A stretch of DNA of 64,000 nucleotides. It comes from Qipengyuania mesophila (lineage in GTDB: Bacteria; Pseudomonadota; Alphaproteobacteria; Sphingomonadales; Sphingomonadaceae). The notes under the pieces were generated by a model. That model was not told the DNA's origin. It did not search any database and was given only the letters and a program-made list of their open reading frames with translations. This document shows, in pieces, positions 11,754 through 16,074 of the stretch. Both the position numbers and the translations under genes were made by a program. Position 1 is the first letter of the stretch; the number at the start of each line of letters is the position of its first letter. Where the stretch lies: the NCBI RefSeq assembly GCF_019711655.1, contig NZ_JAIGNU010000001.1, positions 434,001 through 498,000 on the forward strand, in the 5' to 3' direction.

Positions 11754-12128
11754 ATGAAGCATGTCGCAGCGATTCTCGCAGCCTCCCTGCCGCTGGCAGC
11801 CTGCCAGACCACAAGCGAGGCCGAACCGGCCCCGGCAGCCAGCCTGGTTGCCGCCAACGGCAGCGCGGCTCCGACCTATGTCACCGCGATCTGCGGTGAG
11901 TGCCATGCGGTCACCGCCGACGCGGTTTCGCCCGATCCGCAGGCGCCCAATTGGGTCGATATCGCCAACAGCCCGGGCCTGACGCGCGAGACGCTGGTCG
12001 CCTTCCTCTCCGACGCGCACAATTACCCGATGCAGATGGATGTCGACCTGGTCGATGAGGATATCGAAATCATCGCCGACTACATGATGACGCTGCAGAC
12101 CGACGATTACGTCAGGCGGCCGGGGTAG
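11754..12128 (+). CDS. Cytochrome-c-like lipoprotein
   Basis: A 124-residue exported protein with lipobox LAAC (Cys17). The mature part has one haem attachment motif CGECH (47-51) and a late Met (NYPM, Met93) suited to be the sixth iron ligand, followed by an amphipathic helix ending ADYMMTL. This is the minimal class I cytochrome c layout. It is presumably a lipid-anchored single-haem electron carrier in the periplasm; partners are unknown. AAGGAG lies upstream of the ATG at 11754. Its last 17 bp overlap the 3' end of the opposite-strand Sel1-type gene. Confidence 0.82.
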   Translation: MKHVAAILAASLPLAACQTTSEAEPAPAASLVAANGSAAPTYVTAICGECHAVTADAVSPDPQAPNWVDIANSPGLTRETLVAFLSDAHNYPMQMDVDLVDEDIEIIADYMMTLQTDDYVRRPG

Positions 12129-12840
12129 GGCTTTCGTCGCTGTCCCGCAACTCGCTGGCTTCCTGGTGCTCCCTTAGTTGCTTCCACCAATCTCGCCATC
12201 CCAACGGGATTTGCCGGATTCCGAACTTGCCCTTCATACGGAGCCAATTGCGGAAAAACCGGGCTTGAGGGTGACCGGCATCGATCGCGCGTTCCAAGCA
12301 TGGCTCTATCTGTCGTGCGGCGTCTCGCGACAAATCGCGCAGGTAGGCGTAGAACGACTTCCAGAACATTGCCGGCACGAAACCTCTTTCGGCAGCGGGT
12401 TCAAGGAGTTCCAAAGCCTCATCGATCCGCCCCTGCCCTCTCAATAGTTTTGCACAATCGATGGTCGCCCGCATCGATCCACTTCTGATCGCAATACGAT
12501 AATTCTGTTCGGCCAAATCGGGGTTCTTGGAAACGGCACAGCCCTTGTCATAGTGCCAACCGACCATCCACATCGCCCAGACACTCCCGTCCTGGGCCGC
12601 TTTTCGGTATACTTCCAACGCACCTATCGGATCACTCTTTGCCAACCCTTCTGCCTGTTCCATTCGCGCTGGTTGGTCGGGGCACTCTGAATCCTTGTGA
12701 TCCCACTCGAAGGTATAGCGATTTTCCCACGCCTTGGATGCGTCCCAGACTATGTTCGCCAGCGGTTTGTCCGGCTTCATAGCTTCCTCGAACCGCGCGA
12801 GAATTCTCGGCATGAGTTTTCGACGTAGTTCACGAAACAT
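12112..12840 (-). CDS. Sel1-like repeat protein
   Basis: A 242-residue protein without a signal peptide. The middle holds degenerate Sel1/TPR-type helical repeats: AAQDGSVWAMWMVGWHYDKGCAV-type, then AEQNYRIAIRSGSM and AAERGFVPAMFWKS segments, each with the alternating Ala/Gly pattern of the family. Such repeats mediate protein contacts. I chose ATG 12840 because it overlaps the stop of the upstream S24 repressor as TGATG, which implies coupled translation. Base composition is a little less GC-rich than the neighbours, so it may be accessory DNA. Its function is unknown; coupling to the repressor suggests shared control. Confidence 0.7.
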   Translation of the reverse strand: MFRELRRKLMPRILARFEEAMKPDKPLANIVWDASKAWENRYTFEWDHKDSECPDQPARMEQAEGLAKSDPIGALEVYRKAAQDGSVWAMWMVGWHYDKGCAVSKNPDLAEQNYRIAIRSGSMRATIDCAKLLRGQGRIDEALELLEPAAERGFVPAMFWKSFYAYLRDLSRDAARQIEPCLERAIDAGHPQARFFRNWLRMKGKFGIRQIPLGWRDWWKQLREHQEASELRDSDESPTPAA

Positions 12841-13505
12841 CACACCCGCCCCCCCTTCCACACTACCCGCCCGATCACCTCCACCTCCTCTCGCGCGAGG
12901 TCGATCGGGGCGTAGCTGTCGTTGGCGCTGATCAGCGTGATCCGGCCCGGGGCGCTGGCCTGGACCTGCTTGACGTGGAGCGCGTCGCCGATGCGGACGA
13001 CGTGGATGCCCTCGCCCGCGCGCTTGTTGCGGTCGACGAAGATCTCGTCGCCGCTGCGCAGCGTGGGCTCCATGCTGTCCCCCTCGACGCGGATCGCGGT
13101 GAGATCGGCGCCCTCGAGCCCCATTTCGCGTAGCCAGCGACGCGAGAAGCGGAAGGTATCGAAGGAAATTTCCTCTGCCGAGAATGCCCCCGGCCCGGCC
13201 GAAGCATCGAGCGGGAGGCGCGGCACCTCGACCCAGTCGGCACGCTCACCCGCCACTTCATCGCTCGCCGCCGCCCCGCTCGGCCGAGTGGAAATGACGC
13301 GGCGCCCTACGCCGAGAAACTCGGCAATTTTCAGAAGGTCGGGCTCGTCGAGATGGCGCGGGCTGCCACGCGTCACATATTGCTGGAGATAGGCGGGATT
13401 GCGCCCGATCAGCCGCGACAGGGCAGCGAGGCTGACTCCCTGGTCCTTGGCCAGGTCCTGCAGCCTGCCCCGTGCGTGACGCTCGCTTCGCGGAATGCCT
13501 TCCAT
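12840..13505 (-). CDS. XRE-S24 repressor (LexA/CI-like, self-cleaving type)
   Basis: A 221-residue repressor. The N-terminus (about 10-70) is a helix-turn-helix resembling XRE/CI domains (VSLAALSRLIGRNPAYLQQYVTRG). The C-terminal half is a peptidase S24 domain with the Ser-Lys dyad at Ser144 (GDSMEPTL) and Lys179 (HVKQV). An Ala103-Gly104 pair in SAGPGA sits where LexA/CI-type proteins cleave themselves under RecA control. This points to a repressor inactivated by DNA damage. It is not the housekeeping LexA, whose HTH differs. Two palindromes lie just before its start, probably its operators. An IS1595 element has inserted 45 bp upstream. Confidence 0.88.
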   Translation of the reverse strand: MEGIPRSERHARGRLQDLAKDQGVSLAALSRLIGRNPAYLQQYVTRGSPRHLDEPDLLKIAEFLGVGRRVISTRPSGAAASDEVAGERADWVEVPRLPLDASAGPGAFSAEEISFDTFRFSRRWLREMGLEGADLTAIRVEGDSMEPTLRSGDEIFVDRNKRAGEGIHVVRIGDALHVKQVQASAPGRITLISANDSYAPIDLAREEVEVIGRVVWKGGRV

Positions 13506-13511
13506 GATTTT

Positions 13512-13546
13512 TCCTATAGCATAGGATTTTTCCTAGACAAGTAGGA
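13512..13546. promoter_or_regulatory. Two palindromic operators of the S24 repressor
   Basis: TCCTATAGCATAGGA (13512-13526) and TCCTAGACAAGTAGGA (13531-13546) share arms TCCTA/TAGGA, with centres about 20 bp apart, close to two helical turns. They begin 7 bp upstream of the repressor start and overlap any promoter there, fitting autorepression. The second site runs into the target duplication of the IS element, so the last TAGGA half-site was copied to the far side. Binding by the S24 protein is inference. Confidence 0.6.
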
Positions 13547-13549
13547 TTT
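13542..13549. repeat. Left target-site duplication of the IS1595 element
   Basis: TAGGATTT immediately precedes the left inverted repeat. The identical 8 bp follow the right end at 15438. Eight-base duplications are the norm for the IS1595 family. Confidence 0.92.
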
Positions 13550-13578
13550 GGCCATTATCCCCTTGCGACAAGTAAGGG
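13550..13578 (+). repeat. Left inverted repeat of the IS1595 element
   Basis: A 29-bp terminal repeat starting GGCCATTATCCCC. It matches the reverse complement of 15409-15437 at 24 positions, including the uninterrupted core GACAAGTAAG. It also contains the -35 hexamer of the likely transposase promoter. Confidence 0.9.
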
Positions 13579-13591
13579 TTTGTGCTACATA
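13563..13591 (+). promoter_or_regulatory. Likely transposase promoter
   Basis: TTGCGA (13563-13568) and TACATA (13586-13591) are 17 bp apart. The expected start falls at or next to the transposase ATG (13598), so the message may be leaderless; no ribosome-binding site is visible before that ATG. The -35 lies inside the terminal repeat. Confidence 0.5.
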
Positions 13592-13597
13592 ATAGGC

Positions 13598-14470
13598 ATG
13601 ACAAAGGGACCTACGCTTCGCCAATTCCAAGACCGTTTTCCTACGGAAGACAGTTGCTTGGAGCACTTGAAGCTGGTTCGCTTCGGTGAGCGCCACGATT
13701 GCGAGGGCTGCGGCGTCGAGGCCAAGTTCTACAGGGTTAAGAAGCGGCGCTCGTATGCTTGCGAGCATTGCGGCCACCAGATTTATCCTACGGCGGGCAC
13801 CCCGTTCCACAGGACGCGCACCAGCCTGCGGGACTGGTTCTATGTGATGTTCCTGTTCTGCACGAAGCGGAACGGCGTGAGCGCCAAGGAAGTCGAGCGC
13901 CAGATCGGCGTGACCTACAAGACCGCGTGGCGCATGTGCCATGAGATCCGCAAGTATATGGCTATCGCGGACGGTGACGAACCGCTTGGCGGCCCGTTCA
14001 AGACTGTCGAGATTGACGAAACCTACATGGGCGGTGAGCGCCCCGGCAAAGGGTCGGGCTACAAAGCGAACAAGACCATCGTAGTCGGCATGTATGAGCG
14101 CGGCGGCGACATTGTGGTTCGTGTCCTGCCCGACCGTCGCAAGATCACGATGAACCAAGTCATTCCGCTGCACGTGAAGCCGCATACGGAAGTGCACACC
14201 GATGAATTTGGAGGCTACGGCGACCTAGGCGTGCTGAACGGCTACTGGCACAAGCGGGTCAATCACTCGAAGGGCGAATACGTCTCGGCAACGGGCACTT
14301 CGACCAACGGCGTGGAAGGCTTCTGGGCGCAGCTAAAGCGCAGCATCCACGGGACGCATATTCACGTCAGTCAGAAGCATCTTTCGAAGTATCTTGGCGA
14401 GTTTGAGTTTCGTCACAATCGCCGGAATCGTCCCGAGACGATGCTTCCTGAATTGATGACTTCTTTCTAG
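13598..14470 (+). CDS. IS1595 family transposase (ISXO2-like)
   Basis: A 290-residue transposase, full length. An N-terminal zinc ribbon (Cys35, Cys38, Cys55, Cys58) precedes a helical DNA-binding part (NGVSAKEVERQIGVTYKTAWRM) and the ISXO2-like DDE catalytic core: Asp140 (VEIDETYMGG), Asp202 (HTDEFGGY) and the NGVEGFW motif with Asn237/Glu240. It cuts and pastes or copies the surrounding element. No frameshift or stop interrupts it, so it may be active. The preceding region overlaps the left inverted repeat. Confidence 0.96.
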   Translation: MTKGPTLRQFQDRFPTEDSCLEHLKLVRFGERHDCEGCGVEAKFYRVKKRRSYACEHCGHQIYPTAGTPFHRTRTSLRDWFYVMFLFCTKRNGVSAKEVERQIGVTYKTAWRMCHEIRKYMAIADGDEPLGGPFKTVEIDETYMGGERPGKGSGYKANKTIVVGMYERGGDIVVRVLPDRRKITMNQVIPLHVKPHTEVHTDEFGGYGDLGVLNGYWHKRVNHSKGEYVSATGTSTNGVEGFWAQLKRSIHGTHIHVSQKHLSKYLGEFEFRHNRRNRPETMLPELMTSF

Positions 14471-14565
14471 AAGTAGGGGGTCCTCCTTCCGTCATCGCCT
14501 TTAGTAGGCGGTCAAAGCGGTCCTTTGGATTGTCCATCCTTTGATTATCGCGCATAAACTTCACC

Positions 14566-15372
14566 ATGACAAATACGGTCTCATTAGCCGAGGGGGAGGG
14601 CGAGGGCCAAAACGAAGGCAGCGCTACCCAGAAGCAACCGTCCCCACCAGAAGTTGTGGCCACTGAAAGCGCCATAGAAGCCCCAAATTACGAGCACCCA
14701 TGCGACTACCCCTACAGTCGCGAGGATAGCGATTTGTGCGCACAGTGGACCGCCGCCACTGCGGCGAGAGAGGCGGCAGATTGGCTTCCCTTTCAAGCCA
14801 AAATCGGAACCATAGAAGCGATCGGCATTCTCTTGTCGCTCATCATCTCTACGCTCTCGGCGCTGGCCGCGTTCAGGGCCCTGAGCAGCTCCAGGAACGC
14901 CGAAGAGCGACAGAACCGGGCCTATGTGTTCCCGGACCAAATTCAAGTTTCCTCCCGCAACGCCCCGGGCGTCAAAGCCTCCCTCCGCGGCATTCCTATG
15001 GCCGCGCTTGTCATAAAGAACTCTGGGCAAACGCCAGCTTACAACTTGGTTCATTGGACCGGATTTGAGTTGATTCCGGTGGAGGATGAAGCCTCCCTTA
15101 CGGTTCCGAAGCTGGAGAGGGTCAGCGCCAACACCCTCCCCCCGGGAGGGGTTAACCACAAGCCCGTGTTTATGGACCGCAGGCTGACCAACGAGGAAAA
15201 GAAGTCGGTTAGGCGCGGAGCTATGGGTCTCTTTGTGTACGGGAGAATTGAGTTCGAAGACGCCTTCGGCATCGAGCGGTTCACCAACTACCGCCTCGTC
15301 TATACGGGGCAATGGCCGCCACCCGAAGGGGCCTCGTGCTTCTTCAGCACGGGCGGGAATAACAGCAACTAG
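14566..15372 (+). CDS. IS passenger gene: single-span membrane protein of unknown function
   Basis: A 268-residue protein inside the IS1595 element, downstream of the transposase. The N-terminal 70 residues are hydrophilic and acidic. One membrane segment follows (about 79-103, GTIEAIGILLSLIISTLSAL), then a short charged stretch (NAEERQNRAYVF) and a beta-rich soluble domain of about 145 residues containing KNSGQTPAYN. The layout resembles small hypothetical membrane proteins scattered through alphaproteobacterial accessory regions. It has no transposition motif. Possible roles include superinfection exclusion or host benefit, but nothing in the sequence decides. Its base use is less GC-biased than the chromosome. 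Confidence 0.75.
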   Translation: MTNTVSLAEGEGEGQNEGSATQKQPSPPEVVATESAIEAPNYEHPCDYPYSREDSDLCAQWTAATAAREAADWLPFQAKIGTIEAIGILLSLIISTLSALAAFRALSSSRNAEERQNRAYVFPDQIQVSSRNAPGVKASLRGIPMAALVIKNSGQTPAYNLVHWTGFELIPVEDEASLTVPKLERVSANTLPPGGVNHKPVFMDRRLTNEEKKSVRRGAMGLFVYGRIEFEDAFGIERFTNYRLVYTGQWPPPEGASCFFSTGGNNSN

Positions 15373-15408
15373 CGCTGCCGCGATTAGGGCCACACACCAT
15401 CTAAATCT

Positions 15409-15437
15409 CACTTACTTGTCCCAAGGGTATAATCCCC
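15409..15437 (-). repeat. Right inverted repeat of the IS1595 element
   Basis: The 29-bp right end, which read on the minus strand starts GGGGATTATACCC. It matches the left end at 24 of 29 positions and abuts the second TAGGATTT copy. Confidence 0.9.
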
Positions 15438-15445
15438 TAGGATTT
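15438..15445. repeat. Right target-site duplication of the IS1595 element
   Basis: TAGGATTT, identical to 13542-13549. Removing the element and one copy restores a continuous intergenic region between the S24 repressor and the gene at 15513. Confidence 0.92.
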
Positions 15446-15451
15446 CGATTG

Positions 15452-15466
15452 GAACATATGCGGAAC
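15452..15466 (+). promoter_or_regulatory. LexA-type SOS box (GAAC-N7-GAAC)
   Basis: GAAC ATATGCG GAAC is the reverse complement of GTTC-N7-GTTC, the LexA box of alphaproteobacteria. It lies 46 bp before the start of the gene at 15513, where LexA would block its promoter. It sits opposite an S24 repressor gene, which supports a DNA-damage-controlled operon. One match in this length of DNA could arise by chance, so binding needs a test. Confidence 0.6.
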
Positions 15467-15512
15467 ATATCCAGCGAATCGCCCTTTCCGGCCATCATTT
15501 GGGGAGCCCGCC

Positions 15513-15731
15513 ATGCTGATCCGCACAATCGAGACATTCCTCCGCCAGCACGAGATGGCGGCGACCAAATTCGGCCGCCTCGCCGCGCACGACCCGCGAT
15601 TCGTACTCGACCTGCGCCTGGGCCGCGAACCGCGCGAGCGCACCGAGCAGCGGATTCGCGGCTTCATTGCCGGCTTCGAAGCCGCGCGCGCCATCGCCCT
15701 CGCACAGCAGGAGGTCGCCCATGTCGGCTGA
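15513..15731 (+). CDS. Small HTH-like protein, putative DNA-damage-controlled
   Basis: A 72-residue protein. Residues 10-52 follow a compact helix-turn-helix pattern (FLRQHEMAATKFGRLAAHDP, then DLRLGREP and TEQRIRGFI) that resembles small Cro-like proteins, and the tail is a helix. GGGGAG lies seven bases before the ATG at 15513. It overlaps the next gene by 11 bp. A LexA-type box precedes it and an S24 repressor faces it, so it could be the Cro-like partner of that repressor. I recognise no characterised homologue; DNA binding is inference from the pattern. Confidence 0.72.
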   Translation: MLIRTIETFLRQHEMAATKFGRLAAHDPRFVLDLRLGREPRERTEQRIRGFIAGFEAARAIALAQQEVAHVG

Positions 15732-16074
15732 ACCGACCCCTCCCCGCGCCCGCCGCCCGCGCCGCACCGCCGCCGATCGCGTCCGCGCCGCGCTGGCCGA
15801 CCTCCACGGCCATCACGGCAAGGTTCTGACGCATACCGAGAAAGCCTGGGCAAGCATCACCTTCGCCGGCACGCGCCATTGCCTCGCGCTGCTCTTTGCG
15901 GGCGAAGAGGCGGTCGAAGCGGGCGAGGCCTTCGTCGCCGAACTGCCCGATCACGAGTTCGCCATCCCCGGCCAACTGGTCGCCGACGCGGGCGTGACCG
16001 AGGTCGAGCACCGCCTCTTTCCCGAACCACGGCTGGTGGTGCGTTGCGAGTTGCTGCTCCTCGAGGAGAGCTGA
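15721..16074 (+). CDS. Conserved hypothetical protein of the SOS-box operon
   Basis: A 117-residue protein without signal or membrane segments. An Arg/Pro-rich N-terminal tail (about 1-20) precedes a mixed alpha/beta domain with EKAWASITFAGTRH in the middle and VRCELLLLEE at the end. The ATG at 15721 lies 11 bp inside the upstream gene, so translation is probably coupled. Similar proteins of unknown function seem to occur in sphingomonads, from memory rather than a search. Context suggests a role in the same damage-controlled unit. Function cannot be assigned. Confidence 0.75.
   Translation: MSAEPTPPRARRPRRTAADRVRAALADLHGHHGKVLTHTEKAWASITFAGTRHCLALLFAGEEAVEAGEAFVAELPDHEFAIPGQLVADAGVTEVEHRLFPEPRLVVRCELLLLEES

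Follow-up and report, generated by a model that had tools for sequence, protein, structure and literature searches.

What does a phage-type repressor gene control when it faces two small, uncharacterised genes in a bacterial genome? This question is raised by an S24 repressor gene and the adjacent pair p72–p117 of Qipengyuania mesophila, which lie in the 64,000-nucleotide stretch of DNA analysed here (the window). We consider it rather probable that the three genes form a domesticated phage CI/Cro-type switch that is near-core in Sphingomonadaceae, is controlled by S24, LexA and GANTC sites, and has p117 as its effector. In many genera this switch is probably wired into the LexA-dependent SOS response, and probably also into the methylation cycle. 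The features on which this answer depends are listed below (HTH, helix-turn-helix; ORF, open reading frame).

12840-13505, minus strand: XRE-S24 (CI/LexA-type) repressor gene; PF00717, E 5e-22; phrog_4 (transcriptional repressor), E 1.5e-41
13512-13526: second predicted S24 operator, TCCTATAGCATAGGA; 0 expected by shuffling; overlaps the putative S24 -10 (TATAGG, minus strand)
13531-13546: main predicted S24 operator, TCCTAGACAAGTAGGA; in 74/98 family loci; 0 expected by shuffling in the window
13550-15437, plus strand: IS1595-family insertion sequence between repressor and pair; inverted repeats, transposase, 8-bp duplication
15452-15466, plus strand: candidate LexA (SOS) box, GAACATATGCGGAAC; conserved in the genus and many relatives
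15475-15481: CGAATCG, CcrM-type GANTC site; GcrA extended motif YGAKTCG on the minus strand
15513-15731, plus strand: p72 ORF, 72 aa, putative small Cro-like HTH protein (AlphaFold2 model); in 137/150 family genomes
15721-16074, plus strand: p117 ORF, 117 aa, predicted phage tail-terminator fold (AlphaFold2 model and structural match); start codon overlaps the p72 end

All of the elements named in a preliminary description of this locus were present as described: an XRE-S24 protein with Ala103-Gly104, Ser144 and Lys179, two TCCTA/TAGGA palindromes before its gene, each unique in the window, a GAAC-N7-GAAC motif before the pair, and a two-gene operon whose ORFs overlap by 11 bp. The description overlooked the insertion sequence, which splits what had been taken for a single control region; once the element is removed, S24 and p72/p117 face each other across about 113 bp. 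The interpretation given there, a phage-like genetic switch under double control by LexA and its own repressor, was supported as regards linkage, self-cleavage residues, divergent layout and LexA box, but not as regards double control as it was written.

Conservation of the S24–p72–p117 module

The family sample comprised 150 genomes, and 98 loci were examined closely, the counts among these 98 not being independent. p72 was found in 137 of the 150 genomes and p117, by a single-sequence search, in 119. The S24 gene was divergent from p72 in 90 of the 98 loci and p117 followed p72 in 93 (profile search), so the linkage of repressor and pair, and with it the divergent layout, held in most of the family loci. 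Among 80 named Erythrobacteraceae-type genomes (Qipengyuania, Erythrobacter, Porphyrobacter, Altererythrobacter and others), S24 was adjacent in 79, in one of them across an inserted element, and p117 was adjacent in all 80. Protein identities placed the window within Qipengyuania or beside it. Outside the family, p72-like sequences turned up only here and there (31 of the 385 genomes sampled from the class, including some from the family itself), and weaker p117 relatives occurred in other families of the order. Judged by gene content, the S24–p72–p117 module is a near-core trait of Sphingomonadaceae, and no published account of it in sphingomonads was found in the open-access literature that was searched.

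The residues needed for self-cleavage were conserved in an alignment of 89 S24 sequences, with Ser144, Lys179, Ala103 and Gly104 kept in 98%, 100%, 96% and 97%, respectively. The N-terminus gave weak matches to HTH_31 and HTH_3, so that the protein combines an HTH with the S24 domain. By its domains and conserved residues it is a CI/LexA-type repressor of the self-cleaving kind, for which RecA-stimulated autocleavage is predicted. Phage-type genes, phage homologues of p117 and p72 and, in this strain, an insertion sequence would also be expected of a decaying prophage remnant without present function. However, the module has been retained throughout the family with a near-invariant operator, and both the catalytic residues and the p72/p117 overlap are conserved, which makes such a remnant extremely improbable.

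Two known systems resemble the module in layout. A lambda-type CI/Cro switch likewise has a divergent self-cleaving repressor (cleavage being predicted here) and a small HTH protein around shared operators, with an effector downstream. Unlike that switch, the module has no integrase, replication or structural genes, is chromosomal in nearly all genera of the family and carries a LexA box and GANTC sites in its promoter; the genes of the switch were the only phage genes at this place in the window. The known system closest to the module is FddR of Francisella (PMC13148647), in which a co-opted phage repressor of the S24 type faces a divergent gene to which no function has been assigned. Likened by layout and description, the two share a phage-type S24 protein, an Ala-Gly site, a Ser-Lys dyad, a palindrome in the repressor's own promoter (to which S24 binding is predicted here), a divergent function-unknown gene, a genus-wide locus and a small network; in Qipengyuania, too, a genus-wide S24 gene shares its palindrome with the divergent unit. 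The motifs differ, being GTG-N11-CAC for FddR and TCCTA-N6-TAGGA for the sphingomonad module. Francisella lacks a canonical LexA, whereas sphingomonads keep LexA and, in many genera, its box in the same promoter. The sphingomonad module further differs from FddR in its two-gene operon with a putative Cro-like gene, its GANTC sites and its family-wide spread.

Three observations were made on genes near or related to the module. A gene for a Sel1/TPR-type protein (12112-12861) would, with a GTG start, share 22 bp with the 3' end of the S24 gene. A second S24–p72 pair is present in the same genome (L002, C1:1127863 region), also with GAAC-N7-GAAC and with p117 absent; its neighbours are a relaxase-like ORF and a gene that PADLOC matched to MzaB (E 3e-39), which belongs to the Mza defence system. 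In other alphaproteobacterial families, some longer open frames contain p72-like domains repeated in tandem (G223, G332, G432 and G509; loci L168, L173, L175 and L170).

Operators, LexA box and GANTC sites

The control block ATTTTTCCTAGACAAGTAGGATTT was almost invariant across the 98 family loci. The putative S24 promoter, on the minus strand, has the -35 TTGTCT and the -10 TATAGG with 16-bp spacing; the main operator TCCTAGACAAGTAGGA contains this -35 together with the putative ancestral -35 of the pair (TAGACA, plus strand). When up to 3 mismatches were allowed, TCCTAGACAAGTAGGA occurred once in its own genome, and therefore no wider S24 regulon was found there by this operator search. The operator also bears on a different role for the repressor, in which S24 serves mainly as immunity to, or as a sensor of, invading phages that share it, with p72 and p117 acting on the incoming phages. 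Sphingomonad-type phages do encode p117 and p72 relatives. However, where viral contigs held exact copies of the operator, these copies either belonged to host DNA flanking Mu-like insertions or came from contigs in which neither S24 nor p72 was present, and no true phage with the operator was identified, so we hold this role to be quite unlikely.

The GAAC-N7-GAAC motif was found in 24 of the 98 family intergenic regions against 0.15 expected in shuffles, while variants with a spacing of 5, 6, 8 or 9, with the orientation reversed or with one half-site scrambled gave 0 or 1 of 98. The distance from the box to the start of the operator was 25 bp in nearly all cases, and the N7 varied while the GAAC halves were kept, which is typical of a binding-site footprint. 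Of the 13 other species of the genus, 12 had the box, as did 54 of the 80 named genomes. Its single occurrence in the window, where 1.6 would be expected, is not significant by itself, and it is conservation across relatives that makes the motif significant. The lexA gene of the same genome carries the same box, GAACGAATGCGGAAC, about 37 bp upstream of its start. By its conserved promoter box the pair is a predicted member of the LexA regulon in the genus, although most other genera have not conserved the box. Where it was absent, its position, read by eye, often held a GANTC site or a third TAGGA..TCCTA-type palindrome.

GANTC was found in 88 of the 98 family intergenic regions (34 expected) and CGANTCG in 65 (2.5 expected). 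Control palindromes of the same shape were found in 11-20 of the 98 regions, the control palindromes as a whole in 0-20, and GANTC occurred in 13% of random 110-bp stretches of the window. All 80 named genomes had GANTC at this place, and the genome encodes gcrA (GcrA PF07750 over cut-off). According to PMC7987155, methylated YGAKTCG is the motif at which GcrA activates, and an overlap between GANTC and LexA boxes can occur. In sequence, the module promoter is like the GcrA/CcrM-controlled promoters of alphaproteobacteria in having GANTC, often as YGAKTCG (PMC7987155).

In this strain the insertion sequence places the two halves of the control region 1.9 kb apart. The element takes the putative -35 and the left operator half away from the pair. 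TATAAT, which lies at the element's right end, is now the -10-like sequence closest to the pair; the LexA box and the GANTC site remain. Double control by LexA and S24 has probably been lost in this strain, because the element separates the S24 operator from the pair.

p72, p117 and the proposed working of the switch

p72 had no family match in Pfam, NCBIfam or PHROGs. Its AlphaFold2 model (predicted local distance difference test score, pLDDT, 89.5) has four helices that make up a minimal HTH, and structural matches to 434 repressor/Cro, HipB and SinR were weak, with insignificant E-values. The term "Cro-like" is therefore used here as a reading of the modelled fold and of gene position.

The window copy of p117 had no family match (PF11367 included). 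PF11367 matched 3 of 86 p117 relatives (best E 2.5e-5), the 86 members gave no match in PHROGs, and no solved structure was significantly matched by a profile made from the p117 alignment. The AlphaFold2 model (pLDDT 94) has the order alpha-beta-beta-alpha-beta-beta. Its best structural match was a virion chain of a gene transfer agent (GTA), 6tba_4A (Z 11.1, 100 residues, 2.7 A), followed by many tail terminators; in the viral structure library BFVD it matched tail completion proteins or DUF3168. In the model, p117 thus has the fold order of phage tail terminator and tail completion proteins (PF11367, DUF3168), with Z up to 11. Unlike these proteins, the window p117 has no significant sequence match, its chromosomal copies follow p72 without adjoining tail genes, and its phage homologues stand beside gam, mostly ahead of HNH and terminase genes. 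Of 20 IMG/VR contigs with a p117 relative (up to 60% identical), 18 had a Mu-Gam-like gene next to it; in 17 the relative lay directly upstream of that gene, usually with HNH and TerL next. In three of these contigs the p117 relative was preceded by a p72-like gene. For one phage contig Gam (PF07352, E 1.7e-13), HNH, TerS and TerL were confirmed by Pfam. The predicted fold is therefore tail-terminator-like while the phage gene is not in a tail cluster. In the sphingomonad-type phages L186-L202 the p117 relative overlaps or abuts the Mu-Gam gene, and the protein may be a functional partner of Gam.

The module might also be the sphingomonad counterpart of RogA-GafYZ of Caulobacter crescentus (PMC9632790, PMC11150451), a repressor controlling two small activators of a GTA or prophage cluster. 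In favour of this, p117 is structurally closest to a GTA virion chain, and the layout is the same, with an S24-architecture repressor that has essentially one main target, a two-gene operon (PMC9632790). However, RogA lacks the catalytic residues that are conserved in S24 here, its operator is GGAA-N4-TTCC, and GafYZ control a GTA (PMC9632790, PMC11150451). The marker GTA_TIM was over cut-off in 0 of the 150 family genomes, the Caulobacter control being positive and one marker family being used. GafY is a DnaA-related protein (HdaB), and p72 has no Pfam match. A counterpart of RogA-GafYZ is very improbable, GTA control being unsupported by this one marker and the two repressors differing in their catalytic residues.

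The place of p117 in phages also bears on whether the pair could be a toxin-antitoxin-like or abortive module, in which p72 is a DNA-binding antitoxin or autoregulator and p117 a toxin or cell-division inhibitor freed by damage, with a role like that of SulA, SidA or phage Kil. In lambda and Mu, kil lies beside gam, and this is the place that p117 takes in phages. Also in keeping with this explanation are the operon of two overlapping genes, in which the HTH gene comes first, the SOS box present in many genera and the frequent hits by insertion sequences and Mu-like phages. However, no toxin or defence family was matched, near-core conservation is unusual for a toxin-antitoxin module, and the tail-terminator fold is no known toxin fold, so we regard it as unlikely. 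Against PADLOC defence systems the module proteins gave no match beyond a weak HTH hit.

For the domesticated switch, we infer from the observed gene order, conservation, sites and residues and from the modelled folds how binding, cleavage, induction, methylation control and p117 function may fit together. S24 would bind the TCCTA-N5/6-TAGGA sites, which overlap both divergent promoters, and repress itself and the p72–p117 operon. DNA damage would activate RecA, whereupon LexA would cleave itself and S24 would do so at Ala103-Gly104; where a genus has GAAC-N7-GAAC at the promoter of the pair, both S24 and LexA would have to go before full expression. The GANTC sites would make expression dependent on CcrM methylation and GcrA. 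p72 would act in a Cro-like manner on the shared operators, and p117, the relative of a phage early gene, would be the effector. Since the phage homologues of p117 are encoded immediately next to a Gam gene, our best guess is that it handles DNA ends or takes part in recombination when DNA is damaged. In this strain, in which the insertion sequence cuts the pair off from the S24 operator, mainly LexA control is predicted.

Several points weigh against this account. The LexA box is missing in 74 of the 98 family loci; on the S24 tree it is clustered and must have been gained or lost about 13 times, so that control by LexA does not belong to the ancestral core of the module. The operator is severed from the pair in this strain, and the GANTC sites may serve other roles. 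The fold matches give no function for p117, and its position in phages fits no known role of a tail terminator. A fuller version of the account is held more tentatively, as a possible but somewhat doubtful extension: in a module near-core in alphaproteobacteria, one promoter would integrate a co-opted self-cleaving phage repressor, LexA and CcrM methylation. Its output would be a regulator of the Cro type together with a DNA-damage effector of a new kind, in which the tail-terminator fold is reused and which comes from a gam-linked phage early gene.

If the domesticated switch is real, it would be a family-wide, previously uncharacterised arm of the DNA-damage response of Sphingomonadaceae, in a lineage that retains LexA. 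In the course of evolution, one promoter slot would have held in turn a LexA box, a methylation site or a third operator of the repressor. For p72 and p117, both of them uncharacterised protein families, the switch would provide a testable setting, with p117 tied to gam-adjacent phage early genes.

The insertion sequence and other mobile elements

The remaining features of the window module belong to the insertion sequence.

13542-13549: left copy of the 8-bp target duplication, TAGGATTT, read from the sequence
13598-14470, plus strand: IS1595-family transposase; NF033547, E 1.7e-59; PF12762, E 7.7e-34
14566-15372, plus strand: cargo ORF of the insertion sequence, 268 aa; phrog_9607 (function not known), E 2e-4
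15438-15445: right copy of the 8-bp target duplication, TAGGATTT, read from the sequence; the sole operator half-site still next to the pair

An ISXO2-type DDE transposase, terminal inverted repeats of 23 nt (13554-13576 and 15411-15433, 91%) and the 8-bp duplication place the element in the IS1595 family, and it occurs in one copy in the genome. The cargo ORF had no match in Pfam or NCBIfam and holds a hydrophobic segment that is possibly membrane-spanning. The reconstructed empty site, in which TTCCTAGACAAGTAGGATTT is joined to CGATTGGAACATATGCGGAAC, has the arrangement found in congeners without the element.

The same operator base was occupied by IS1595-type elements in five genomes (the window, L019, L025, L301 and L337), the insertion point lying before TAGGATTT or TAGGAAAT; those in L019, L025 and L301 may alternatively be elements with a related transposase or end rather than IS1595-type proper. 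Both copies of the duplication were visible in the window and in L337 (Erythrobacter fulvus sf7). The S24 operator looks like a preferred target site for such elements, and the module as a whole seems to be a hot spot for mobile elements, the counts of insertion sequences and Mu-like phages coming from searches that started at the module itself. Control scans gave 4 weak loci for LexA and 0 loci for GcrA, with pattern sensitivity differing between the scans.

S24–p72 pairs at the ends of IMG/VR proviruses were considered as phage-encoded and ruled out as such, since the junctions (phage ends TGTAGC..., 5-bp duplication CAGCG) identify the sequence around these Mu-like insertions as host DNA. 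In many IMG/VR contigs (L351, L356, L362, L365/L216, L375, L208, L212, L213, L215, L223 and L226), Mu-like phages of about 40 kb were apparently inserted inside the module, either in the 5' end of p72 or close to where p72 and p117 meet. Their ends read, for example, TGTAGC..GGCCAAAAAT, and the CAGCG duplication was seen in L365/L216.

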